A stretch of DNA of 35,408 bases, from positions 1-35,408 of the forward strand of contig CAKRRG010000030.1 in assembly GCA_934394545.1 (NCBI GenBank), written 5' to 3'. The position numbers and the translations under genes were made by a program. The stretch comes from an uncultured Blautia sp. GTDB taxonomy: Bacteria; Bacillota; Clostridia; Lachnospirales; Lachnospiraceae. A model generated the notes under the pieces. The model worked only from the letters and a program-made list of their open reading frames with translations, did not search any database and was not told the DNA's origin. Positions 2,637 to 14,619 of the stretch are shown piece after piece (positions within the stretch are counted from its first letter, which is position 1; every line of letters begins with the position of its first letter).

Positions 2637-4575
2637 TTGGGTTGCTGTATGACTGGTATAGCGATGTTTCTTTCATTCTTTTTCCTGTATCATACTTATA
2701 TCCAGGATATTATTTATGAAGAACGATTGAACCAGATGGAAGAGATTACCCGTCAGATGTTTCAAAATCTGGAGGATGTGATCGATTCCCACTGGAATCG
2801 GGTAACGGAAGAATGTAATTATCTGAGAGATGCAAACGTACAGACTACAGATGAGCTTTGCAGACATATGAAAAAGAAATATGAATTATCCGCATATGCA
2901 GATCAGAAGATCACGTTGATGGCAGTGGATTCAGAGGGCGGATATTATACAGAATCCGGAAACAGGGGACTTTTACGGGATCTGGATTATTTTGAAGAAA
3001 GCCCTGAAAAAATCAGTTTTGTTTTTGATTCCATGACAGATAACCAGTCTGAGATGGTATTTCTGAATCGTCTGCCGGAACCAATATATCTTCAGAATGG
3101 AGAAAAGAAAACTTCAATTCTATACTTTGGAATTGCCCAGGATATGGAACAGCTGAATCCTTATTTTAACTGCGATGCATATAATGGGAACAACAGTGTG
3201 TATGTACTGGATGATAATGGATCTAAACTGTTTAACAGCAATCAGGTGGAACTGATCAAGGGGCATAATGTATTTTCTGTTTTACAGAATATGAAGTACC
3301 TTCACAATTCTTCTTTTGAGAAAACAAAGGCGGAACTGGAAGAAAAAGGCTGCCTTTCTGGTTCCTGCAACGTATGTTGCTACGAATACATTAAAACTTG
3401 TCAATTTTGTCATGATATTTATCGTTATCTTTACGGTTATGGCAGCCTCCTGTGTTATGCTGGGAATTTCTTTTATTATGCACAGAAACCAACAGGAAGC
3501 AAACAGATCCAAGAGTAGTTTTCTTGCCAATATGTCTCACGATATACGTACTCCTATGAATGCGATCATTGGTATTACGTCACTGATCAGACATGATGCC
3601 GGTGATAAAGGCAAGGTAATAGAATATGCGGATAAAATTGACACTTCTTCACAGCATCTGTTAGGGATTATTAATGATGTTCTGGACATGAGTAAGATTG
3701 AAGCGGGAAAAACGGTTTTCAAGTATTCTGACTTTTCTATTCTGGATTTTATACAGGAACTCGATACCATATTTCATTCTCAGATATATGAAAAGAAGCA
3801 GACTTTTACAATTATAAAAGAAAACATCCGTCATGAGTGGGTGAATGGGGATCAGGTTCATTTGATGCAGATTTTCAGTAATCTGCTGTCGAATGCAATG
3901 AAGTATACGCAGGAAGGTGGAGAAATTCAGCTTTTGATAGAGGAATGTGAATCAAATTCATCTGTTTATGCAAAGTACCACTTTTTAGTCAGTGACAATG
4001 GTATGGGAATGTCGGCAGATTTCAAGGATATGATTTTTGATACGTTTACCCGTGAAGAAAATTCCCTGACCAATAAGATACAGGGAACCGGACTTGGAAT
4101 GGCAATTACCAAAAATCTGGTTGATTCAATGGGCGGAACCATCGATGTAGAAAGTGAACCGGGAAAGGGCAGCTGTTTCGAGATTTTTATGGATCTGAAA
4201 ATTGCAGAAGAAAGACTTGTTTCTCCGGCGTCACAGACAGAAACAGATGAGCAGGAGGGCAATATCCTGCAGGGAATGAGATTCCTGTGTGCAGAAGATA
4301 ATGAGATAAATGCAGAAATACTGATGGATGTGCAGATGCCTGTCATGAACGGCTATGAGGCAACGAAGGCAATCCGCAGAAGCTCTCATGAACTGGCAAA
4401 TACAATTCCGATCATTGCCATGACCGCCAATGCATTTTCAGAGGATATACAGCATTCTCTGGCAGCTGGTATGAATGCACATATTTCAAAACCGGTTGAT
4501 ATGAAGACGTTGGAAAAGACGGTAAGAAGCATTAAATCTGGCCGGAGGGGGGACCGAAATAAAAAATATGGATAA
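2637..4575 (+). pseudogene. Frameshifted, internally deleted hybrid sensor histidine kinase
   Basis: The pieces of one hybrid kinase lie in two frames. 2649 to about 3347 encodes TM1 and an extracytoplasmic sensor domain. From about 3349 the next frame gives FLVPATYVATNT, TM2, HisKA with SHDIRTPMNA (His codon 3538-3540), HATPase_c with N-box SNLLSNAMKYT and G-boxes DNGMG and GTGLGM, then a receiver. The frame change lies within 3345-3355. The sensor looks shortened there, suggesting a deletion rather than a single-base slip. The receiver has lost its middle: CAEDNEINAEIL runs straight into MDVQMPVMNGYEA, about 35 residues short, so the alpha1-beta3 region is gone although the phospho-acceptor Asp remains. 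The 3' end overlaps the start of the next kinase by eight bases. Confidence 0.75.
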
Positions 4576-7432
4576 AGGCAGAAAAAAATCAGCCGTATTA
4601 TTAGCAGGTATCGTTTTGGCTTTCGGAATGTGTATGATATTTCCAGTACACTGCCAGGCTGCGGAAACGAATCATGATGAAAAACAGCCACAGATCATCC
4701 GTGTTGGCTCATTTGAGGATACCTTTAATTATGTCGACAAAAACGGTGTCAGACACGGATATGGATACGAGCTCATGCAGGCCCTGGCAGGCTATACCGG
4801 ATGGAAATTTGAGTATGTGAAATGTGACTGGTCCAACTGTTTTGCTAAGCTTGAAAATGGTGAGATTGATGTCATGGGTGACATTTCTTACACCGATGAA
4901 CGTACACAAAGGATGCTTTTTTCGGATGAACCGATGGGTGAGGAAAAATATATCCTTTATGCTGATTTGTCAAAGATGGATATTGGGACATCTGATTTCA
5001 AGTCTATGGATGGGAAACGTGTAGGTGTGCTCATGGATACAGAACCTGAAATCATGCTGACAGAATGGGAAAATAAAAATGGCATACATACAGAACATGT
5101 AAATGTGAATAATGATGATGTTGAAAAGAAATTAGCAAATCATGAGATTGATTGTTTTGTATCTCTGGAGGAATCCATCTGGTCTGAACAGGGAATATCA
5201 TCCGTTACTACGATTGGCAAATCAGGCATATATTTTGCAATAAATAAAGAGCGCAGCGACATCAAAGCAGAGCTGGATCATGCCATGCGTCAGTTGGATC
5301 AGGATAGTTCTTTTTTTAAGGCAGACCTGTATAAGAAGTATTTTACACTTGATTATTGTCAAAGTCTTACTGGCGAAGAAAAGTCTTGGATGGAAGAACA
5401 TGGCGGTATTCAGATAGGATTTCTGAGCAATGATCCGGCGGTATTTTCCCTGGACGAAGAGACAGGAGAACTTACCGGTATGCTAGCAGAATATATTTCC
5501 TATGCCAAAGACTGTCTGGGAAATCAGATACTGGAATTTAATATGCAGGCATATGATGATTACGACGAAATGCTTCAGGCACTGCAGGATCGTGAGATTG
5601 ACATGATATTTTATGCCGGCAGGAATCCATATTTTGCAGAAGAAAACGGATATGCACTTACAAACACAGCCTGGACCTACAGCCTGATGGTGGTAACGGA
5701 TGAGGAATATTTTAATGAGGACGAGGTGTATACAGTAGCTGTGCAAAAGGAACAAGAAGCTTTAAAACAGCATATTGTATTCAATTATCCCCAATGGAAG
5801 CTTGTAGATTGCGATTCGCTTGAGGATGCGGCAGATAAGATCATCAATGAAAAAGCAGACTGTTTTCTGATGGGAACCAGTCAGGCATTGAAATTTGATA
5901 ACGATCGAGATTTCAAGAGTGTTCCACTTACAAAAACAATGGAGGCATGCTTTGCAGTAAGATGTGGAGAGGGAACTCTTTTGTCGATACTGAATAAAAC
6001 CTTGAAGGCCATGCCGTCTGACATGCTTACAAGTGCACTTGCTATCTATGACAGTACGGCAGATAAGGTGACTTTTTATGATTTTGTAAAAGACAACATG
6101 CTTGCTTTTTTTGTTGCTGTAGGATTTTTTGCACTTAGCATAATCAGCATTATCCTTGTACTTTTACGGAAGGCAAGAAAAGCAGAAGCTGTCGCAAAGA
6201 TTGCTGCAAATGATACACAAAAACTCAATGACAAACTGGAAATCGCTTTGAAAAAAGCAGAGGAGGCCAGTCTTGCAAAGACTCGTTTTCTTAACAATAT
6301 GTCCCATGACATCCGTACTCCTATGAATGCAATTCTGGGGTATGCACAGCTTATGGAGGATGAATTAGAAGGAAAGAATCTTCCTGAAACTTCAGAGCAT
6401 TTGGAAAAGCTGCAACAGTCCGGAAATCTTCTCCTGTCAATCATAAATAATGTACTTGACATGGCTCGGATTGAGAGCGGAAGGATGGAGCTTGATGAGA
6501 ATCATTGCCGAATTGAAGATGTTTGGAAGTCTTTGTTTGCAGTATTTGATGAGAAAGCAAGGAAAAAGAATATTACGCTTCATTACACGATGAATGTAGA
6601 GCATGAGCATGTCCTGACAGATGTTACCAAGGTAAAAGAAATATTAGTCAATATCCTGAGCAATGCCATAAAGTATACTCCGGCCGGTGGTTCGGTTATG
6701 ATAAACGTAGACGAATTAGCATGTGATGAGCCCGGGTACATGATTGTGAGAACCAGGGTAAGGGATACCGGAATCGGTATGAGCCAGGATTACCTGACAA
6801 AGATTTTTGAAGCATTCACACGTGAGCGAAACACCACAAAGAGCAAAATCACAGGAAGCGGACTTGGAATGTCAATCGTAAAGAAATATGTTGATCTGCT
6901 CGGTGGAACAATTAATGTAGAGAGTGAGCTTGGAAAGGGCAGTACTTTTACAGTTACATTAAAACACAGAATAGCGGATAAAAGCTATTATGTAAAAAAA
7001 CACGTTGAAAGTTCTGGAACAGGCAGTGAAATACTTGAAGGAAGGAATATCCTTCTGGCAGAGGACAATGATCTGAATGCAGAGATTGCAGAAGCAATCC
7101 TTGAGCGTGCCGGTCTGAAAATAGATCGTGTGGAGGATGGCATTCAGTGTGTGAACAGAATAATGGAAATGCCAGCAGGTACATATGATATGATCCTCAT
7201 GGATATCCAGATGCCCAAAATGGATGGTTATAAAGCAACACAGGCAATCAGAAACCTGCCGGATAAAGATAAGGCAGGCATACCGATTATCGCAATGACG
7301 GCAAATGCATTTGACGAAGATAAGCGAGATGCGCTTGCAGCTGGAATGAATGGTCATATCGCAAAGCCGATCCAGGTTGATAAGCTGCTGTCGCTGTTAG
7401 CAGAAATCATAAAGCAACAAGAAAATGATTAA
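4568..7432 (+). CDS. EvgS-like hybrid sensor histidine kinase with two SBP_bac_3 sensor domains
   Basis: An intact 954-residue membrane sensor. In order: signal peptide (1-31, ..FPVHCQA), two tandem SBP_bac_3-type sensor domains (about 43-260 and 270-505), a transmembrane helix (about 511-533), a coiled-coil linker, HisKA with His580 in MSHDIRTPMNA, HATPase_c (N-box VNILSNAIKYT, DTGIGM, GSGLGM) and a receiver with LAEDNDLNAE and phospho-acceptor Asp879 in LMDIQMP. This is the EvgS/BvgS layout without the C-terminal HPt domain, so phosphate must pass to an HPt protein elsewhere or stop at the receiver. The sensor probably reads a small amino-acid-like ligand. GGAGGGG at about 4545 serves ATG 4568. 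No response regulator gene lies nearby. The preceding decayed kinase is a related but distinct paralogue. Confidence 0.9.
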   Translation: MDKGRKKSAVLLAGIVLAFGMCMIFPVHCQAAETNHDEKQPQIIRVGSFEDTFNYVDKNGVRHGYGYELMQALAGYTGWKFEYVKCDWSNCFAKLENGEIDVMGDISYTDERTQRMLFSDEPMGEEKYILYADLSKMDIGTSDFKSMDGKRVGVLMDTEPEIMLTEWENKNGIHTEHVNVNNDDVEKKLANHEIDCFVSLEESIWSEQGISSVTTIGKSGIYFAINKERSDIKAELDHAMRQLDQDSSFFKADLYKKYFTLDYCQSLTGEEKSWMEEHGGIQIGFLSNDPAVFSLDEETGELTGMLAEYISYAKDCLGNQILEFNMQAYDDYDEMLQALQDREIDMIFYAGRNPYFAEENGYALTNTAWTYSLMVVTDEEYFNEDEVYTVAVQKEQEALKQHIVFNYPQWKLVDCDSLEDAADKIINEKADCFLMGTSQALKFDNDRDFKSVPLTKTMEACFAVRCGEGTLLSILNKTLKAMPSDMLTSALAIYDSTADKVTFYDFVKDNMLAFFVAVGFFALSIISIILVLLRKARKAEAVAKIAANDTQKLNDKLEIALKKAEEASLAKTRFLNNMSHDIRTPMNAILGYAQLMEDELEGKNLPETSEHLEKLQQSGNLLLSIINNVLDMARIESGRMELDENHCRIEDVWKSLFAVFDEKARKKNITLHYTMNVEHEHVLTDVTKVKEILVNILSNAIKYTPAGGSVMINVDELACDEPGYMIVRTRVRDTGIGMSQDYLTKIFEAFTRERNTTKSKITGSGLGMSIVKKYVDLLGGTINVESELGKGSTFTVTLKHRIADKSYYVKKHVESSGTGSEILEGRNILLAEDNDLNAEIAEAILERAGLKIDRVEDGIQCVNRIMEMPAGTYDMILMDIQMPKMDGYKATQAIRNLPDKDKAGIPIIAMTANAFDEDKRDALAAGMNGHIAKPIQVDKLLSLLAEIIKQQEND

Positions 7433-7700: not shown

Positions 7701-9131
7701 ATGAAGAGAAAAAAGGCGTGGCTAAGATGGATAGCCTGGATGCTTCTATTGGTTTTGTGTATGAATAGTGCGGGAACAACGGCTATGGCAGATTCTGAGG
7801 AAGAAAACATATGGGAAGGTTTCATTTCAGAAGAGAAGTTTACTTCGTCACCAGAAGAAATCTCTCCATTTCCGGAAGAAACTTCGGAGACAGAGGGTTT
7901 TCAGGGAATTTCTGAAGGGGTTGATATTGATTTCTATGTTATTATCGATGGAAATAAGGTAAAGCTTCAGCATAATGACATTACCGATATTGCTACATGG
8001 AAAGCTGGAAGAACTACCTGTCATGGTGTTTCCATTGAAGATCTGCTCCTGATATATGAAGAATTTGGATTTGTGAAAAATAGTGAGGATCAGAATCCTG
8101 ATGCAACGGATAAGTTTGTATCTGCATACCGGGAGGAAAGTGAGATAGAATACGGAGAGGTTTATACTGACACAGATTCCGGAAAGACATATGTTTCTTA
8201 TAATTCTGGACAGAATAAACAAGGGGAAGCGGTAGATGTTTACTATCTTCCCAATGGAAAAGGAAGTGCATATAAATTAAAAGATTCTGTAAAAAACGCC
8301 AATTCATTCTACTCCGTGGAGGTAAAGGGAGAAGGTCAGGACCGGATTCGTTATGCATTAACAGGAACTGTGATCGAAGAAGTTGTGTCTGATTTTAATC
8401 CCGAATTGCCAGAACAAACAGATCAGATTGAATGGATCTGCATGGGAGCAGACGATAGGGTAATAGATGGCATACGAGAATCGGAGAATCAGACGAGGTT
8501 TACGATCGGAAAGATCACGCAGTCTTATGTGGTCCAGAGAGCGGGTGAGCCAGCTGCGATAAAGGAGTCAAATATCAGTTCTGATACATCTATAGATGTT
8601 GTCAATCATTCCATAGAAGGTGGCGTGACAGTCAAGATTACCATGGAAGTTACAGGTCCCTTTGGAAATCGAGAAGAGCCATTTGATATGGAAATTGTCT
8701 ATTTTGAAGACGGACAGAGTTTGAGTAAGACGATAGCCGCATCTCTGAAAGATGGAGATGTGCTTGCAATACAGCATGTGGATCAAGATTCAGACATTAA
8801 GATCACAGAGGCTGTTGATACATCAAAATACGCTGTTTCGGTTTCAACAAAAATTCTAAATGAAAGTTCTTCATCAGAAACACCAGCGCTGTTAGATAAA
8901 ATCAAAAATGAAGCCATTATGACTTGCAAAATTTCTGAAATGCAAGGAGATGTGGTAGAAATTAAAGTTACAAACAACAATTTAGAAAATGATGCACCGA
9001 ATACAGGAATTCATTTAGAAAAGAATCTGTATATAGGGATGCTGATCTTTATAAATATTGCCGTTGTCTTGTTTTTTATGAAACAAAAGAAAAACAAAAT
9101 AGAGAGAATAATGAAAAGGGAGGGAGTGTGA
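7701..9131 (+). CDS. Sortase-anchored surface protein, putative pilus tip/ancillary pilin
   Basis: A 476-residue secreted protein. It has a signal peptide (1-31), an acidic Ser/Glu/Pro-rich stretch, a mostly beta middle and a DUF7601/Cna-B-like domain at about 310-420 (VTGPFGNREEPFDMEIVYF). The C-terminal cell wall sorting signal is PNTG at 433-436, a hydrophobic helix and a KQKKNK tail. The residue before the motif is Ala, not Leu, so the signal is APNTG rather than LPXTG. The gene is first in the pilus operon, the place held by the adhesin (cpa) in streptococcal FCT loci, hence the tip/ancillary inference. I see no clear thioester-domain motif. A GGAGGG ribosome binding site precedes ATG 7701. 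Its end overlaps the next gene as TGATG. Confidence 0.75.
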   Translation: MKRKKAWLRWIAWMLLLVLCMNSAGTTAMADSEEENIWEGFISEEKFTSSPEEISPFPEETSETEGFQGISEGVDIDFYVIIDGNKVKLQHNDITDIATWKAGRTTCHGVSIEDLLLIYEEFGFVKNSEDQNPDATDKFVSAYREESEIEYGEVYTDTDSGKTYVSYNSGQNKQGEAVDVYYLPNGKGSAYKLKDSVKNANSFYSVEVKGEGQDRIRYALTGTVIEEVVSDFNPELPEQTDQIEWICMGADDRVIDGIRESENQTRFTIGKITQSYVVQRAGEPAAIKESNISSDTSIDVVNHSIEGGVTVKITMEVTGPFGNREEPFDMEIVYFEDGQSLSKTIAASLKDGDVLAIQHVDQDSDIKITEAVDTSKYAVSVSTKILNESSSSETPALLDKIKNEAIMTCKISEMQGDVVEIKVTNNNLENDAPNTGIHLEKNLYIGMLIFINIAVVLFFMKQKKNKIERIMKREGV

Positions 9132-9367
9132 TGGATTCCAGAAAAAATATAAAAAAAGAGCTGGAAAATCAACCGGAAAACAGGATTACTGAATTTCTAA
9201 AAAAAGTAAAGTTCAAAAAAAGGCTCTTTGGAGTGGATGAAGCGGATGTCTGGAAGAAAATACAGGAGTTGAACCATTTATATGAGGAAGCCCTTGTATG
9301 GGAGCGAAAAAGATATGATCTTTTGCTTGATGAACGCATCAACGTCCGTGAGGAGAATTCTGACTGA
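9131..9367 (+). CDS. Small charged coiled-coil protein of the pilus operon
   Basis: A 78-residue cytoplasmic-looking protein, rich in Lys/Glu and with no membrane segment. Its core KFKKRLFGVDEADVWKKI followed by LNHLYEEAL resembles the N-terminal F-G-V/Y-D-E-x-D-V segment of DivIVA/GpsB-like proteins, so septal or membrane-curvature targeting is possible but unproven. ATG 9131 overlaps the upstream stop (TGATG) and has AAGGGAGGGAG at 9116-9126. A GTG at 9128 is in frame but less likely. The stop overlaps the next start in the same way. Tight coupling on both sides argues for a role in pilus assembly. Confidence 0.7.
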   Translation: MDSRKNIKKELENQPENRITEFLKKVKFKKRLFGVDEADVWKKIQELNHLYEEALVWERKRYDLLLDERINVREENSD

Positions 9368-9921
9368 TGATGAAAAAAAGCCGAAGTTCTAAGCTGACAG
9401 CAGAGCAGGTCATTAAGGGGCGCAGAAATGCAATTCTTGACAGAAGAGGCTGGCTGGAGCTTGGAAAGAGGCTGGCAGGACTGGCACTTCTGTTTTATGT
9501 CCTGTTTTCAGAAGTGTTTCTTATCTGTCAGCTGGATGGGAACGCAATGTTTCCATCATTGAAGGATGGGGATCTCGTTCTTGGATATCGTTTAGAAAAG
9601 GAAATCTATAAGGACGATTTGATTCTGTATGAGATGGACGGAAAAATCTGTGCATCCCGTGTAGTAGCAAAGGGAACGGATTATGTAGATATGGATGAAG
9701 AGGGACGCTTGTATGTTAATGGTACGATGCAGTCCGGGGAGATTCTATACCCTACAGAACCTAAGACACTTCTGAAGTATCCCTTTCGGGTACCAGAAGG
9801 CTATGTCTTTGTTCTTGGTGACTACCGCACACAGTCTTCTGACAGCAGGGACTTTGGTCCACTGCCTGAAGAAGCAATTATGGGAAAAATTATTACACTT
9901 GTCCGTCGCAGAGGATTATAA
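9367..9921 (+). CDS. Signal peptidase I-like protein lacking the catalytic dyad (SipA-like pilus assembly factor)
   Basis: A 184-residue type I signal peptidase fold with one N-terminal membrane helix (about 34-53). The box that normally carries the nucleophile Ser (G-x-S-M-x-P) reads GNAMFPSL, so Ser is Ala60. The box with the general-base Lys (x-K-R) reads CASRVVAKG, so Lys is Ser97. The last box is well kept (GDYRTQSSDSRDFGPLPEEAIMGK around 155-178). Spacing is normal, so this is substitution, not truncation. Streptococcus pyogenes SipA, encoded in the FCT pilus locus, likewise lacks both catalytic residues and is needed for pilus polymerisation without being a protease. The same operon position here suggests the same scaffold or chaperone role. 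It starts at ATG 9367 (or 9370) overlapping the previous stop. Confidence 0.85.
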   Translation: MMKKSRSSKLTAEQVIKGRRNAILDRRGWLELGKRLAGLALLFYVLFSEVFLICQLDGNAMFPSLKDGDLVLGYRLEKEIYKDDLILYEMDGKICASRVVAKGTDYVDMDEEGRLYVNGTMQSGEILYPTEPKTLLKYPFRVPEGYVFVLGDYRTQSSDSRDFGPLPEEAIMGKIITLVRRRGL

Positions 9922-9965: not shown

Positions 9966-11276
9966 ATGAAGAAAAAATTGACAACACTATTGGCTATTGT
10001 ATTAGCGATATTTATGAGCATCCCGGTATTTGCAGATCCATCCGATTATCCTACAGGAGGTACTCCTGCGAATGCACCTTCAACATTTACTATTCAGAAA
10101 AAATACGTGAAATTAGATGGGAACGATGTTGCAGCTCAATTTCCAGCTGAAACGTTAGCATTTAAGTCTGAATGTACAGCAGCACCTATGGATATAGTTG
10201 AAGTACCAAAATTAGTTATAAATCCTTTAGTTGTGAAAACAAATAATCCAGATATTGAGATAAAAGTACCAAAATACACTGTTCCAGGTAAATATAATTA
10301 TAAGATTACAGAATTGTCTCCTGATAAACAAATTTCAAAGCTTGCCGATTCCGCAGGTGTTCTATATGATACAGATCCTGTTTATATTCAGGTTGTTGTA
10401 AAGTATGTTACTGTAAAAAATAGTGATGGTAAGAATACGTCCGAATTACAGAAATTTGTAACCGTTACATCTGAAAATGCCGGAATTGGAAATGGAAATG
10501 ATAAAAATCAGAGTAATGCAGAGAAGAAAGCGGATTTTAGAAACAAATATCTATTAGATGGAGAAATTGATCCAACTGATCCAAGCCCAATTCCAATACC
10601 GAATCCAACTCCAGATCCGGAAGAACCAGATCCGATCAATCCGATTGAGCCGGTTAATGATAAGGCAAAATTTAAAGTTATGAAACAGGTGCGAGGACCT
10701 TTTGCAAGTCGAGATCAGAGGTTTGACATCACAGTAACATTAACTTCAGACAAACCGGTGCGTAGTGATATTAAATATGATAGTGATAAGAATATCATAG
10801 TAAAAGCAGAGGTTCCGGAATCTAACTGGACAAAAGATACAGAAGGAAAATATACAGCAGAGGTTCAACTTTCATTGAAAGATAATGAGACAATTACATT
10901 TACTGGTGTTCCGGCAGGAGTATCCTATAAAGTACAAGAGGATAGGAAACATATTGGAGAATTAACATCTGAGAACGTGAATAAACCAGCTGAAGGTTAT
11001 ACGGTATCTTATTACGGTGGTTCAAAAGTAAACAATCCTACAGCAGATAATACCGGGGATTATGGAGTATCACTTTATGCGTATGGCACAGTTGGAAAGA
11101 ACATAGACAATAACATTATCATTGCAAACCGTAAGGGATTGAATGATGCGGATAAAGATATTGCAAAACCGAACACAGGTATCCGTTTAGATTCTCTTCC
11201 ATATATCATGGTTCTCGCGCTCGTTATACTTGGAGCAGGTATGATGATCGTGAAAAGTCGTAGAAGAGAAGAGTAA
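9966..11276 (+). CDS. FctA/Spy0128-like major pilin with sortase sorting signal
   Basis: A 436-residue secreted pilin. Signal peptide 1-23 (..IPVFA). Domain 1 (about 38-200) has the pilin isopeptide-linkage pattern: candidate Lys45 in FTIQKKY, Glu116 in YNYKITE and Asn193 in FRNKY. A Pro-rich linker follows (about 200-228, DPTDPSPIPIPNPTPDPEEP). Domain 2 (about 233-392) is DUF7601-like with candidate Lys240, Glu325 and Asn388 at matching positions. The sorting signal is PNTG at 402-405 preceded by Lys, then a hydrophobic helix and KSRRREE. The isopeptide residues are inferred from pattern. It has a good AAAGGAG site and lies just before the sortase, as expected of a backbone pilin. Confidence 0.85.
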   Translation: MKKKLTTLLAIVLAIFMSIPVFADPSDYPTGGTPANAPSTFTIQKKYVKLDGNDVAAQFPAETLAFKSECTAAPMDIVEVPKLVINPLVVKTNNPDIEIKVPKYTVPGKYNYKITELSPDKQISKLADSAGVLYDTDPVYIQVVVKYVTVKNSDGKNTSELQKFVTVTSENAGIGNGNDKNQSNAEKKADFRNKYLLDGEIDPTDPSPIPIPNPTPDPEEPDPINPIEPVNDKAKFKVMKQVRGPFASRDQRFDITVTLTSDKPVRSDIKYDSDKNIIVKAEVPESNWTKDTEGKYTAEVQLSLKDNETITFTGVPAGVSYKVQEDRKHIGELTSENVNKPAEGYTVSYYGGSKVNNPTADNTGDYGVSLYAYGTVGKNIDNNIIIANRKGLNDADKDIAKPNTGIRLDSLPYIMVLALVILGAGMMIVKSRRREE

Positions 11277-11342: not shown

Positions 11343-12203
11343 ATGGGTTATAAGATTTCTGAGTATCTACAACGTTTTCTGAATTTCATAATCAGTTTTT
11401 GTCTTATTCTTATTTTCATTGTTTCTGCTTCCTATGCATTGTTTGTGTTGAATGATAATCATAGGATTTATTCTGCAGCAGAAAATGTTCAAGAGGACAT
11501 GCTGAAAATAAAGCCAGATAAAGAACATCCCGATTTTTCCAAATTACTATCAATGAATCCGGATGTTCGTGCCTGGCTTACAATGGACGGAACGCACATT
11601 GATTTTCCGGTAGTGCAGGGAGAAACGAACCATACCTATATCAATCAAGACGTTTATGGAGAATTTGCTCTTGCGGGAAGTATTTTTCTGGACAGCCAGA
11701 ATGCAAAGGATTTTTCAGATTCTTATAATCTTCTGTATGGACACCATATGGATGGTGGAAATATGTTTGGGGATTTGGATTTATATAAGAAGCAGGAGTT
11801 TTTTCAGGAGAATGATACAGGAACACTGCTTTTGCCAGATAGGGTCTACCATCTGAAGGTTGCTGCCGTATTGATTACCGGAGTTTCGGATGATTCTATT
11901 TTTCGTTTGGCAAATTGGCCCAAAACATGGGAAGAAGGGCAATTGGATTATATCCGAAGCAATGCTCTCTTTTTTAAAGAAGAGATCTTGAGTGCCGTAG
12001 AGAAGAGTGAATATCCGCAGCTTGTAGCTTTGACTACCTGTACGTCAGAATTTACAGATGCAAGAACTGTAGTCTTGGCACAGATGGTGCCAGAAGAGAA
12101 TTTGAACGCAGATAAGCATTCCCTCGCTTCAAGTGTGCGAAGCGCTAAGCGGTTGGTAAGGGGGAGGCTTATGTCCGCTTTGCCAGGGAGAAATAGCTTG
12201 TGA
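11343..12203 (+). CDS. Class B sortase (pilus polymerising or anchoring)
   Basis: A 286-residue membrane-anchored transpeptidase. It has an N-terminal helix (about 13-36) and a catalytic domain with His134 in YGHHM, Cys233 in ALTTCTSEF and Arg241 in DARTVVLAQM. The long insert between the His and Cys boxes and the early FPVVQGETNHTYINQDVYGEF segment are typical of class B. In streptococcal FCT loci the pilus sortase (SrtC2) is also class B-like, and it is the only sortase in this operon. It probably joins pilin subunits through the PNTG signals and may also attach the base. A Lys/Arg-rich C-terminal tail extends about 40 residues past the catalytic Arg. The end overlaps the minor pilin start. 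Confidence 0.9.
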   Translation: MGYKISEYLQRFLNFIISFCLILIFIVSASYALFVLNDNHRIYSAAENVQEDMLKIKPDKEHPDFSKLLSMNPDVRAWLTMDGTHIDFPVVQGETNHTYINQDVYGEFALAGSIFLDSQNAKDFSDSYNLLYGHHMDGGNMFGDLDLYKKQEFFQENDTGTLLLPDRVYHLKVAAVLITGVSDDSIFRLANWPKTWEEGQLDYIRSNALFFKEEILSAVEKSEYPQLVALTTCTSEFTDARTVVLAQMVPEENLNADKHSLASSVRSAKRLVRGRLMSALPGRNSL

Positions 12204-12838
12204 AAATGATTAAAAAGACTTTATTTTCTGTGTTGATTATAGTGTTGTTATCAGGTAAAAATCCTGCACAGGTATATGCAATGGAAATAAGTTTTCGGCT
12301 TCCTGTTGAAATCGTTTTGGAAGGTGATAAACCTGTGCAGACGGAAACATTTGAAATACAAATGAAAGCATTAACACGAAATGCGCCTATGCCGGAACAT
12401 ACAAAAGGTCAGCAAGCCATAATCGAAATTCAGGGACAAGGTAAGAAGGAATTTCCGGTTATAACATTTACACAGCCGGGAACCTATCAGTATGAAATTA
12501 TCCAGCAGAGGAGAAATACAGAAGGTTATATATATGACTCCTGCGTATATAACGTGACGGTGTATTGTACTGCAGATGTTTCCAGGGAACTGGAAATAAC
12601 AGTGGTTGTATTGGAACAAAATGAAGGGAAAGTAAAAAAAGAGGCAGTTCGTTTTCTTAATAAATATGAAGTGTCGAAAGCTCTTTCTGAACAAAACAAA
12701 CCAGCACAGTCTGAAAATATTACGCCAGTGAAAACAAGTGATAACACTCCGGTTCGTACATGGCTATGCATTTTTGTAATAAGTGGTTTTTTGAGTTTAT
12801 TTGTTACCTTCAAAAAGCATCGTGCAAAATTCGGTTAA
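12200..12838 (+). CDS. Small FctA-fold minor pilin (putative basal subunit)
   Basis: A 212-residue secreted protein with signal peptide (about 1-28, ..QVYA) and one Spy0128/FctA-like Ig domain (about 30-160). It ends with the family's FLNKY strand and a C-terminal anchor: KTSDNTPV, hydrophobic helix, KKHRAKFG. The helper positions differ from the major pilin: the first strand reads ISFRLPVEI without the expected Lys, and the YQYEIIQQ strand has Gln where Glu is usual, so no isopeptide bond is expected. The sorting motif is unlike the PNTG of the other two. Being last in the operon, like fctB, it fits a basal or terminating subunit. GTG 12200 has AGGGAG nine bases upstream; ATG 12206 is the alternative. 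Confidence 0.72.
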   Translation: MKMIKKTLFSVLIIVLLSGKNPAQVYAMEISFRLPVEIVLEGDKPVQTETFEIQMKALTRNAPMPEHTKGQQAIIEIQGQGKKEFPVITFTQPGTYQYEIIQQRRNTEGYIYDSCVYNVTVYCTADVSRELEITVVVLEQNEGKVKKEAVRFLNKYEVSKALSEQNKPAQSENITPVKTSDNTPVRTWLCIFVISGFLSLFVTFKKHRAKFG

Positions 12839-12951: not shown

Positions 12952-14619
12952 ATGGGATATACAGTAAAGGACTTGCTTGAATCAAAAAAATTTTCAGAAA
13001 TGCAGCTGATAAGTGACGAAACGGGGGTTAATCGGGAAATTGTAGGTGCTCGGATTATTGAAGTGCCAGATATGGAGAATTTCCTGAAGGGTGGGGAGCT
13101 TCTTCTGACAAGTATGAAAGCTTATGACAACACAGAGGAACCTGCTTTTTTACATCATTTGGAAGAATTGGATAAAAAGCAGATCAGTGGATTTGTGGTA
13201 AAAGATCCTAAGAGAACAGAACACTCCAAAAAGTTATTTGAGGTATTATTACAGTTTTCGAAAGAACGTCATTTGCCGGTTATGGAAATTCCAGGAGACC
13301 TATCTTTCTGGGGAATTATAAAGCACATAATACTTCAGTTGTATGATATCGAAACTGCAGAGTTAATGTATTTTAAAATGACCCACGACAATTTAAGTAA
13401 TATTTTACTGAATGTAGCAGATTCGAGAGAGGCAATAGAGAGTGTGCTTTTTATGACGGACACCATGCTTGGAAATCCAGTTAGTTTATGGAATGGCGAT
13501 GGGGAGTGCCTTTTTACAAGCAATTCGGATAAACCATGGGGAAGCATATTAAATCAAAATATTTCGGAATATAAGCCTAATATTATTACAAAATATCAAT
13601 ACTGGTGTCGAAGAAGAAAAGATGTTGATTATGTTGAATACATAAAAAAACTGGATGTCTTTCAACGAAGAGAAATCTATCTGGTTATTTCTGAGAAGTA
13701 TGAGCCACTGAAAGAATTGGATTTTATTGCATTAGAGAACATCATCATTACACTGCAAAATAGTTTGATGCGTCTTATTATCGAAGAAGATCTTGAAAAA
13801 CGATACCGAAGAGATTTGGAATATCGTTTGCTGAATGGCTCGTTGTCAAATGATGAAGAAAAGGAAGTTGCAGGCATACTTCATTTTGCGGATACTGATA
13901 AATTTCAGGTTGTTACTTTCCGCATGGAGACACTAGAGAATAGCGAAGCTTTCTCTAATGCCCAAATAAAAGAAACAGAGCAGGTTGAAAAAGAACTTTT
14001 AAAGCATTTACCAAAAGAGTATATTTTTTCTCAAACCAATCAGATTGTTTATATTCATAAAGTAGCGGAACAGGAGAATGGATTAGAGTTCCGAAAAAAA
14101 CTGGAGGAACTGCAGCTTACCATACAGGAATATCTTATTCGTAAAAAGGTTGAAGTAAATTTCCTGGTTGGGATAGGGAAGATTGTCACAGGATACCATC
14201 TATTAAAAGAATCCTTTAAATCCTCTAAAATAGCACTTAACTATATTAAAATTATCAGAAGAATAGTAGGAGATGAGGATAAATCTATCATAGATAGTTC
14301 TAAGATAGGATTCTTTTACCATGTAATGGAAAAGATGAAGGATAAATCGGAATTGCGTGGGTTTATACCGGAATCCTTGAATAAGCTTTATCAGTACGAC
14401 GTACAGAAAAATGGAGAACTGATTAACACATTGGAGTGTTTTCTGAATAATAATCAAAGCTTAAAAAAGACTTCTGAAATATTATTTGTTCATTATCGGA
14501 CAGTTTCTTATCGTTTGCAAAAAATAACAGAAATAACAAATATGGATTTTAATAATGCAACGGAAATGCTGGGAATTCGAAATGGACTGATAGCAATCAG
14601 AGTGCTAGAGGTAATGTAA
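12952..14619 (+). CDS. PucR family transcriptional regulator
   Basis: A 555-residue cytoplasmic regulator. An N-terminal PucR domain (about 5-125, VKDLLESKKF.. LLLTSMKAYDN.. ISGFVVKD) is followed by a GAF-like or unassigned middle, a CdaR GGDEF-like region (about 290-430) and a C-terminal PucR-type helix-turn-helix (about 490-550, LECFLNNNQSLKKTSEILFVHYRTVSYRLQKI, shown in parts). PucR proteins control purine, amino acid or sugar-acid pathways, usually next to their targets. Here the nearest target candidates are the pilus operon just upstream and the downstream genes. The 113-base gap before it is AT-rich and has no terminator that I can see, so readthrough from the pilus operon is possible. 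Start ATG 12952 follows AAGGAAGG. Confidence 0.87.
   Translation: MGYTVKDLLESKKFSEMQLISDETGVNREIVGARIIEVPDMENFLKGGELLLTSMKAYDNTEEPAFLHHLEELDKKQISGFVVKDPKRTEHSKKLFEVLLQFSKERHLPVMEIPGDLSFWGIIKHIILQLYDIETAELMYFKMTHDNLSNILLNVADSREAIESVLFMTDTMLGNPVSLWNGDGECLFTSNSDKPWGSILNQNISEYKPNIITKYQYWCRRRKDVDYVEYIKKLDVFQRREIYLVISEKYEPLKELDFIALENIIITLQNSLMRLIIEEDLEKRYRRDLEYRLLNGSLSNDEEKEVAGILHFADTDKFQVVTFRMETLENSEAFSNAQIKETEQVEKELLKHLPKEYIFSQTNQIVYIHKVAEQENGLEFRKKLEELQLTIQEYLIRKKVEVNFLVGIGKIVTGYHLLKESFKSSKIALNYIKIIRRIVGDEDKSIIDSSKIGFFYHVMEKMKDKSELRGFIPESLNKLYQYDVQKNGELINTLECFLNNNQSLKKTSEILFVHYRTVSYRLQKITEITNMDFNNATEMLGIRNGLIAIRVLEVM

Follow-up and report, generated by a model that had tools for sequence, protein, structure and literature searches.

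The closest described relatives of the system considered here are the class B pili encoded by the FCT-2, FCT-3 and FCT-4 loci of Streptococcus pyogenes, in which the genes are ordered Cpa, SipA, FctA, SrtC and FctB (PMC4049620). In S. pyogenes, SipA is needed for pilus polymerization and has no peptidase activity, and the SipA mutants D61A, D61S and D61A/K98A keep polymerization running (Young et al. 2014, PMC4049620). According to a review from 2021, the interactions of SipA with other pilus factors are still unclear (PMC7900414). Here, we describe a sipA gene within a pilus operon on a 35,408-nucleotide stretch of DNA from an uncultured Blautia sp. (contig CAKRRG010000030.1), hereafter called the window. 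Its product is, as judged from the sequence, most likely a SipA-family pseudo-signal-peptidase without proteolysis. We think it probable that this non-cutting SipA partners the class B sortase at the membrane and that its cytosolic tail is bound by a DivIVA/GpsB-like adaptor, which clusters or places the unit.

The sipA product matches the Peptidase_S26 family PF10502 (69 bits, cut-off 22.9) and the signal peptidase I family TIGR02227 (96 bits, cut-off 47). It shares the overall family and the sequence boxes with type I signal peptidases (SPases), but lacks the Ser-Lys dyad of the active enzymes: the nucleophile box reads GNAMFP (Ala60) and the base box CASRVV (Ser97), while the GDYRTQSSDSRDFG box is retained. 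In phmmer alignments with the solved SPase 4nv4 and with S. pyogenes SipA, Ala60 falls on the nucleophile and Ser97 on the base, and no Ser/Lys pair shifted elsewhere in the protein was seen in these alignments. A first-pass annotation of this DNA had described a signal peptidase homolog with both catalytic residues replaced, the other boxes intact and the pattern of SipA in FCT loci, and it had named such an alignment as a check; all of this holds. Among solved structures, S. pyogenes SipA is the closest match (4n31, 91 bits, E 6.9e-25), compared to 37 bits (E 2.9e-8) for the best true SPase structure, and the closest named relative among the matches listed is a protein of Dorea phocaeensis (79% identity). 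Since 16 of the 120 best homologs (of 1,093) likewise carry Ala and Ser, the two replacements are not a sequencing accident. The S26 homology that is closest to SipA, the loss of both Ser and Lys, the pilus operon and the grouping in phylogenetic trees all place the protein in the SipA class, and we infer from its sequence that it lacks peptidase activity.

The loss of the dyad is a feature of the family. Among 121 aligned proteins (the window protein and the best 120 of 1,093 homologs), the nucleophile/base states are D/G (31), A/G (30), G/G (24), A/S (17), E/G (8), S/G (5) and T/G (3), with S/S, N/S and gap/S occurring once each, and Lys is found at the base position in none of them. The same is true for 81 loci, namely the window and the 80 best out of 140 confirmed genome loci, in which D/G (23), G/G (17), E/G (14), S/G (9), A/G (6), N/G (3), A/S (2) and G/S (2) are joined by single cases of D/A, T/G, D/S, R/G, Q/G and again by no Lys at the base position. 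Lys does occur at this position in the SipA-type protein of locus L197, together with Met, and in L098, together with Gly. Homologs with an apparently intact dyad are mentioned for S. suis and S. agalactiae (PMC4049620). In a phylogenetic tree, 94 SipA-type sequences are separated from 42 Lys-bearing ones by one branch with a Shimodaira-Hasegawa-like approximate likelihood ratio test (SH-aLRT) value of 96, also when the dyad positions are masked, and an enlarged tree of 137 and 44 sequences with the dyad unmasked recovers the same branch (SH-aLRT 90); both trees come from a quick search over 143 to 146 columns without bootstrap and contain long branches. The groups were named by their dyad, and the question tested was whether the rest of the protein agrees with this naming, which it does. 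S. pyogenes SipA, represented by a partial sequence on a long branch, lies on the side of the window protein and apart from the Lys-bearing SPases. No Ser-Lys protein is found within the SipA side of either tree.

These data bear on the origin of the replacements. It had been suggested in the first-pass annotation that the dyad was lost independently in a distant phylum member; in this view, Ser and Lys would have disappeared from an ordinary SPase encoded next to a class B sortase, and the resemblance to SipA would be convergent. The replacements in the window protein are indeed unlike those in S. pyogenes (A/S versus D/G), as had been pointed out; however, the states seen most often are D/G, A/G and G/G in the best 120 homologs and D/G and G/G in the loci, the trees place the window protein together with S. 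pyogenes SipA and apart from Lys-bearing SPases, and the operon order is the same as in S. pyogenes. Because S. pyogenes SipA is the best solved relative, Lys is missing from all 121 proteins and all 81 loci and one branch splits the two groups, an independent loss is not supported; convergence was rejected on the basis of the trees and the spread of dyad states, and we regard it as extremely unlikely. On the sequence evidence, the A/S versus D/G difference is drift inside one SipA family. Nor is the phylum distant, as all named loci except L068 are filed as Bacillota. The further argument that pilus assembly needs the fold rather than the chemistry agrees with the S. pyogenes mutants but is not new, since dyad-site mutants of S. 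pyogenes SipA still polymerize pili and the point has already been argued (PMC4049620). Thus, of the earlier interpretation, the SipA likeness, the neighboring class B sortase and the missing dyad stand, whereas the independence, the distant phylum and the fold argument were put too strongly.

A second loss of the dyad may have occurred elsewhere: L160 encodes an S26 protein with Asp and Arg at the dyad positions, which groups with ordinary SPases on a long branch outside the SipA clade, and is possibly a separate loss, though not that of the window gene. The genome containing L160 (G714) also has two SipA matches. In another genome, G940, ten matches to the SipA profile were found, mostly open frames of 261 to 265 amino acids, with 10 of 64 first-look candidates scored. 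When the S. pyogenes SipA fragment was searched against 395 genomes, 12 contained matches, G007 among them.

It could also be argued that SipA keeps a cryptic peptidase or another catalytic activity that uses other residues. Ser is still present at the nucleophile position in some family members, and L197 combines a SipA-type protein with Lys, though without Ser. However, no Ser-Lys sequence lies inside the SipA side of the trees, and S. pyogenes SipA is inactive and still functional as D61A/K98A (PMC4049620), so that we give this explanation very little credence.

What SipA does instead is suggested by its link to the class B sortase. The first-pass annotation had proposed a survey of the dyad positions next to class B sortases: besides the absence of Lys reported above, 72 of the 81 loci have a class B sortase gene 3' of sipA in the same orientation, and a pilin-like open reading frame (ORF) lies between the two in 71. 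Eight of the nine loci without a downstream sortase are on contigs that stop at most 2.6 kb after sipA; in the ninth, L065 (sipA at 9001-9540), no sortase or pilin match was found on 18.5 kb. In L140 (586-1980), one ORF of 464 amino acids combines a class B sortase (TIGR03064, 167 bits) with a SipA domain; this genome belongs to the class of G007, which we take to be that of the erysipelotrichs. A protein search with the L140 fusion, with scoring confined to the 7,999 candidates that had the most words in common with it, revealed 57 further fusions (P0122-P0178) among the best 120 of 219 matches, giving a set of 58 with the query. In all 58, the sortase residues Cys207, His113 and Arg215 are invariant, whereas the base position of the SipA domain is Arg in 57, Ser in one and Lys in none, and the nucleophile position is Ser in 37, Thr in 13, Ala in six and Met in two. 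Each fusion therefore covalently ties an apparently intact sortase to a Lys-less signal peptidase. A structure model of the fusion matches S. pneumoniae PI-2 SrtB (4y4q, TMt 0.88) and SipA (4n31, TMt 0.76) and contains two predicted helices of membrane-span length between the two domains, the relative placing of which is not fixed at a predicted template modeling score (pTM) of 0.58.

The fusions could, however, reflect co-expression rather than contact. SipA might then act on the pilins without touching the sortase, its dead cleft serving as a chaperone or decoy for signal peptides or sorting signals. The peptide-binding cleft is conserved, and in the crystal it is filled by the peptide of a neighboring molecule (PMC4049620). 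On the other hand, the mutation V99R, designed to block the cleft, left polymerization running (PMC4049620), and the 58 fusions hold one sortase and one SipA per chain; we therefore consider a sortase-free role unlikely. In published pull-downs, no contact between SipA and the sortase was found, for which the authors name the octameric, membrane-free state of the recombinant SipA as a possible reason (PMC4049620).

The second element of the proposed system is the gene directly upstream of sipA, which encodes a protein of 78 amino acids and whose TGA stop codon overlaps the ATG of sipA by one base (TGATG). Members of this family are found upstream of sipA in 65 of the 81 loci by phmmer, or in 66 if L001 is included, where the gene (about 8750-9010) has an apparent ATA start or no standard start. 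All 65 called pairs have the gene and sipA in the same orientation; the gene overlaps the first possible start of sipA in 53 pairs and lies within 40 bases in 41, the true starts being uncertain. A profile search returned homologs of the 78-aa protein (at least 120 of 1,059), and no precomputed Pfam domain is present among the best 120. Since only four of 391 genomes in the class of G001 contain a match (G001 included), one of them weak and within a 712-aa frame, the family is not a general gene.

The AlphaFold2 model of the 78-aa protein, with a predicted local distance difference test score (pLDDT) of 91, shows a hairpin loop that joins a short helix to a long one; a Foldseek search with this model returned no match at E ≤ 0.001. 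When the family was searched by sequence against Pfam, NCBIfam and PDB, nothing convincing emerged: the 78-aa protein of the window matches neither Pfam DivIVA nor NCBIfam DivI1A, DivIVA is absent from the matches listed for 52 family members (25 of 30 Pfam families at E ≤ 0.1), and TIGR03544 matches one of the 52 with an E value of 0.08. In a profile comparison using hhalign, a DivIVA profile of seq­uences from seven proteins gave no significant result (E 0.13), whereas 34 DivIVA/GpsB-type sequences with the domain cut out reached 25.1/28.1, compared to a maximum of 14.0/15.3 in 100 column shuffles, and still 22.0/24.5 when the adaptors of Ser-Lys SPases were omitted; the result thus depends on the depth of the profile. 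The alignment is in register with the DivIVA loop motif, the published consensus of which is RGYDxxEVD (PMC9858780). This consensus does not occur in the 78-aa protein of the window, which has FGVDEADVW, or in the family consensus F-G-G-V-x-E-x-D-V-W, and the relative encoded at L187 has FGYDKEDVY. For this reason, the 78-aa protein is called DivIVA/GpsB-like rather than a member of the family; from the sequence comparison, the likeness is a distant one.

A connection between the 78-aa protein and SipA is indicated by the SipA tail. Roughly 12 residues ahead of the membrane helix, adaptor-linked SipAs carry a motif of the class h-I-x-x-R-R, which in five SipAs with too short a called ORF lies in frame upstream of the called start. 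The motif was first spotted by eye, and a nine-residue matrix was built from training tails picked by a pattern from that view and applied in a two-fold held-out design to loci returned by the searches, many lower matches lying outside the test. In the held-out halves of the first set, the motif is present in 65 of 69 SipAs with the upstream gene and in none of 24 without it; a second set, scored with the unchanged matrix, gave 9 of 11 versus 0 of 32, and overall the motif is found in 74 of 80 versus 0 of 56. The adaptor-positive SipAs of the second set include L193, assigned by a targeted read-through look at 8 of 53 new loci; if L193 is not counted in this way, the second set becomes, by hand, 8 of 10 versus 1 of 33. 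The same look at first-set genome-contig loci without the gene gave no match. Dropped from the test were L011, L022, L031 and L198, all of them cut by a contig end, L156, which is partial, three cut Lys-bearing sequences (L109 and the second ORFs of L084 and L094) and seven new loci with a domain identical to one already included (L161, L162, L163, L165, L167, L168 and L191); L160 was tested apart, and the Ser-Lys SPases L187 and L188 are not among the 11. The six misses (L021, L034, L057, L068, L175 and L186) have weaker forms of the motif by eye. On the best tree, in which many branches are unsupported, 16 path-disjoint pairs differ in the gene; in 300 random pairings, the tail changed with the gene in 13 to 15 pairs and in the opposite sense in none; with the six misses counted by eye, 16 of 16 agree. 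If only supported branches are used, five pairs remain, of which 4.8 on average point in the same direction (median p 0.0625).

Two further observations concern the pairing. In L172 (minus strand), the adaptor domain is fused to the N-terminus of SipA in one ORF of 235 amino acids. Furthermore, a related DivIVA-like coiled-coil gene, one with FGYDKEDV, is located upstream of the Ser-Lys SPases L106 (L106/L127), L187 and L188; for the latter two, the matrix gives low tail scores. The pairing of adaptor and peptidase may therefore be older than the loss of catalysis, with the root not settled. Another group of Ser-Lys signal peptidases is represented by L254, to be compared at the N-terminus with L102, L107, L108 and L146; at L254, the gene is preceded by a different coiled-coil ORF of 92 amino acids.

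As the adaptor role of the 78-aa protein is a candidate one, the gene might simply be a passenger of the operon, for instance a regulator or a factor serving some other protein, and the arginine-rich tail a positive-inside topology signal. Many SipA tails without an adaptor are also basic, and few independent pairs remain on supported branches. However, it is h-I-x-x-R-R, beyond basic charge, that tracks the gene (74 of 80 versus 0 of 56), the adaptor domain is fused to SipA in L172, and three Ser-Lys SPases also stand behind such a gene, which makes a mere passenger rather improbable. By analogy to GpsB, the adaptor most likely binds the tail and so holds SipA in many species.

Taken together, we favor a model in which the extracellular S26 domain of SipA would act at the membrane as a partner of the class B pilus sortase that does not cut, and would present or position pilin precursors for transpeptidation. 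The 78-aa protein would bind the short cytosolic tail of SipA, and this adaptor could cluster or place the SipA-sortase unit on the cytosolic side of the membrane, much as penicillin-binding proteins are handled by GpsB through their arginine motifs. The grouping with S. pyogenes SipA, the family-wide dyad loss, the operon, the conservation of the adaptor, its co-occurrence with the motif and the fusions (one with the adaptor, 58 with the sortase) are read from sequence, and how the proteins touch each other, where in the cell they act and what occupies the S26 cleft are what we infer. More tentatively, and with somewhat less than even confidence, class B pilus assembly could be pictured as a three-layer machine of a DivIVA/GpsB-type scaffold, the arginine tail of a dead peptidase and its outer domain as obligate sortase partner, in which the scaffold sets the sites of assembly (septum or poles) and the pairing of scaffold and peptidase predates the loss of catalysis, since some Ser-Lys signal peptidases carry it, too.

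New are the 78-aa gene without Pfam or NCBIfam family upstream of sipA, its tracking of the tail motif and the 58 sortase-SipA fusions. No description of the fusion, the small gene or the tail motif was found in titles and abstract openings of open-access papers, a search that left subscription papers and preprints outside, and the available parts of PMC7900414, PMC8088525, PMC11987632, PMC12984324, PMC11898559 and PMC12272431 do not mention them. The findings bear on the open question of why class B pili require a dead signal peptidase. The natural fusions are single-chain constructs for joint expression and structure solution of both domains, and the adaptor/tail pairing offers a cytosolic partner that is open to peptide testing. 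If true, the model would connect the DivIVA/GpsB family of scaffolds with the assembly of pili in gut-type Bacillota.

Coordinates of the pilus operon and of sipA features in the window
Feature	Position	Strand	Basis or remarks
Ancillary pilin candidate, 476 aa, Cpa position	7701..9131	+	Signal-peptide-like start, C-terminal PNTG and membrane anchor by eye
78-aa cytosolic DivIVA/GpsB-like candidate adaptor	9131..9367	+	Upstream conservation; AlphaFold2 pLDDT 91; DivIVA profile match
SipA, signal-peptidase homolog without dyad, 184 aa	9367..9921	+	Cytosolic tail, one transmembrane helix, extracellular S26 domain
SipA tail motif VIKGRRNAI, residues 15-23, class h-I-x-x-R-R	9409..9435	+	Co-occurrence with 78-aa gene family
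Ala60 codon, SPase Ser nucleophile position	9544..9546	+	Alignment to solved SPase and SipA
Ser97 codon, SPase Lys base position	9655..9657	+	Alignment to solved SPase and SipA
Backbone pilin candidate, FctA/Spy0128-like isopeptide domain	9966..11276	+	PF12892 27 bits, PF24547 47 bits; KPNTG near C-terminus
Class B sortase	11343..12203	+	TIGR03064 174 bits (cut-off 153.75)
FctB-like basal pilin candidate, FctA domain	12200..12838	+	PF12892 49 bits, TIGR03786 50 bits; TPVKTSD near C-terminus

The genes of the window thus form a pilus operon of the order ancillary pilin-sipA-fctA-srtB-fctB, in which the ancillary pilin is assigned by its position and by eye and has no Pfam or NCBIfam match at E ≤ 0.01. 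The best solved match of the sortase is 3psq, Spy0129 of S. pyogenes. A gene for a PucR-type regulator (12952-14619) follows directly 3' of the operon on the same strand, and 5' of it (3316-7432) two adjacent ORFs have, by eye, features of a sensor kinase and of a receiver-type protein.

Compared to the FCT-2/3/4 loci of S. pyogenes, the window operon has the same gene order, save for the extra 78-aa ORF directly upstream of sipA. The S. pyogenes gene list in the available text names no small upstream gene but skips Spy0126 (PMC4049620), and the region itself lies outside this comparison. SipA/LepA of these loci (PDB 4n31, 4k8w) and the window protein are both dyad-less S26 homologs, share the gene order with a class B sortase and the same side of the tree, and end alike (RRRGL and RVRGI, respectively); they differ in the dyad replacements (D48/G85 in S. 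pyogenes, A60/S97 in the window) and in the conserved cytosolic tail motif of the window protein. From C. perfringens VR-10B, too, a class B pilus locus is known that includes a 'signal peptidase' (PMC8088525). With GpsB and DivIVA, the 78-aa protein shares a predicted short helix, a loop with a conserved Gly, a long helix and profile similarity above that of shuffled columns, but it has no family match and carries FGVDEADVW in place of RGYDxxEVD. In an alignment by this motif, the positions of GpsB Asp31 and Asp35 appear to correspond to Trp41 and Gln45; because the two acids are not matched, binding by the 78-aa protein, if real, would differ in detail from that of GpsB. The targets of GpsB itself are arginine motifs that penicillin-binding proteins carry in their cytosolic mini-domains (PMC6335420); located near the membrane, these targets are comparable to the tail motif of SipA.
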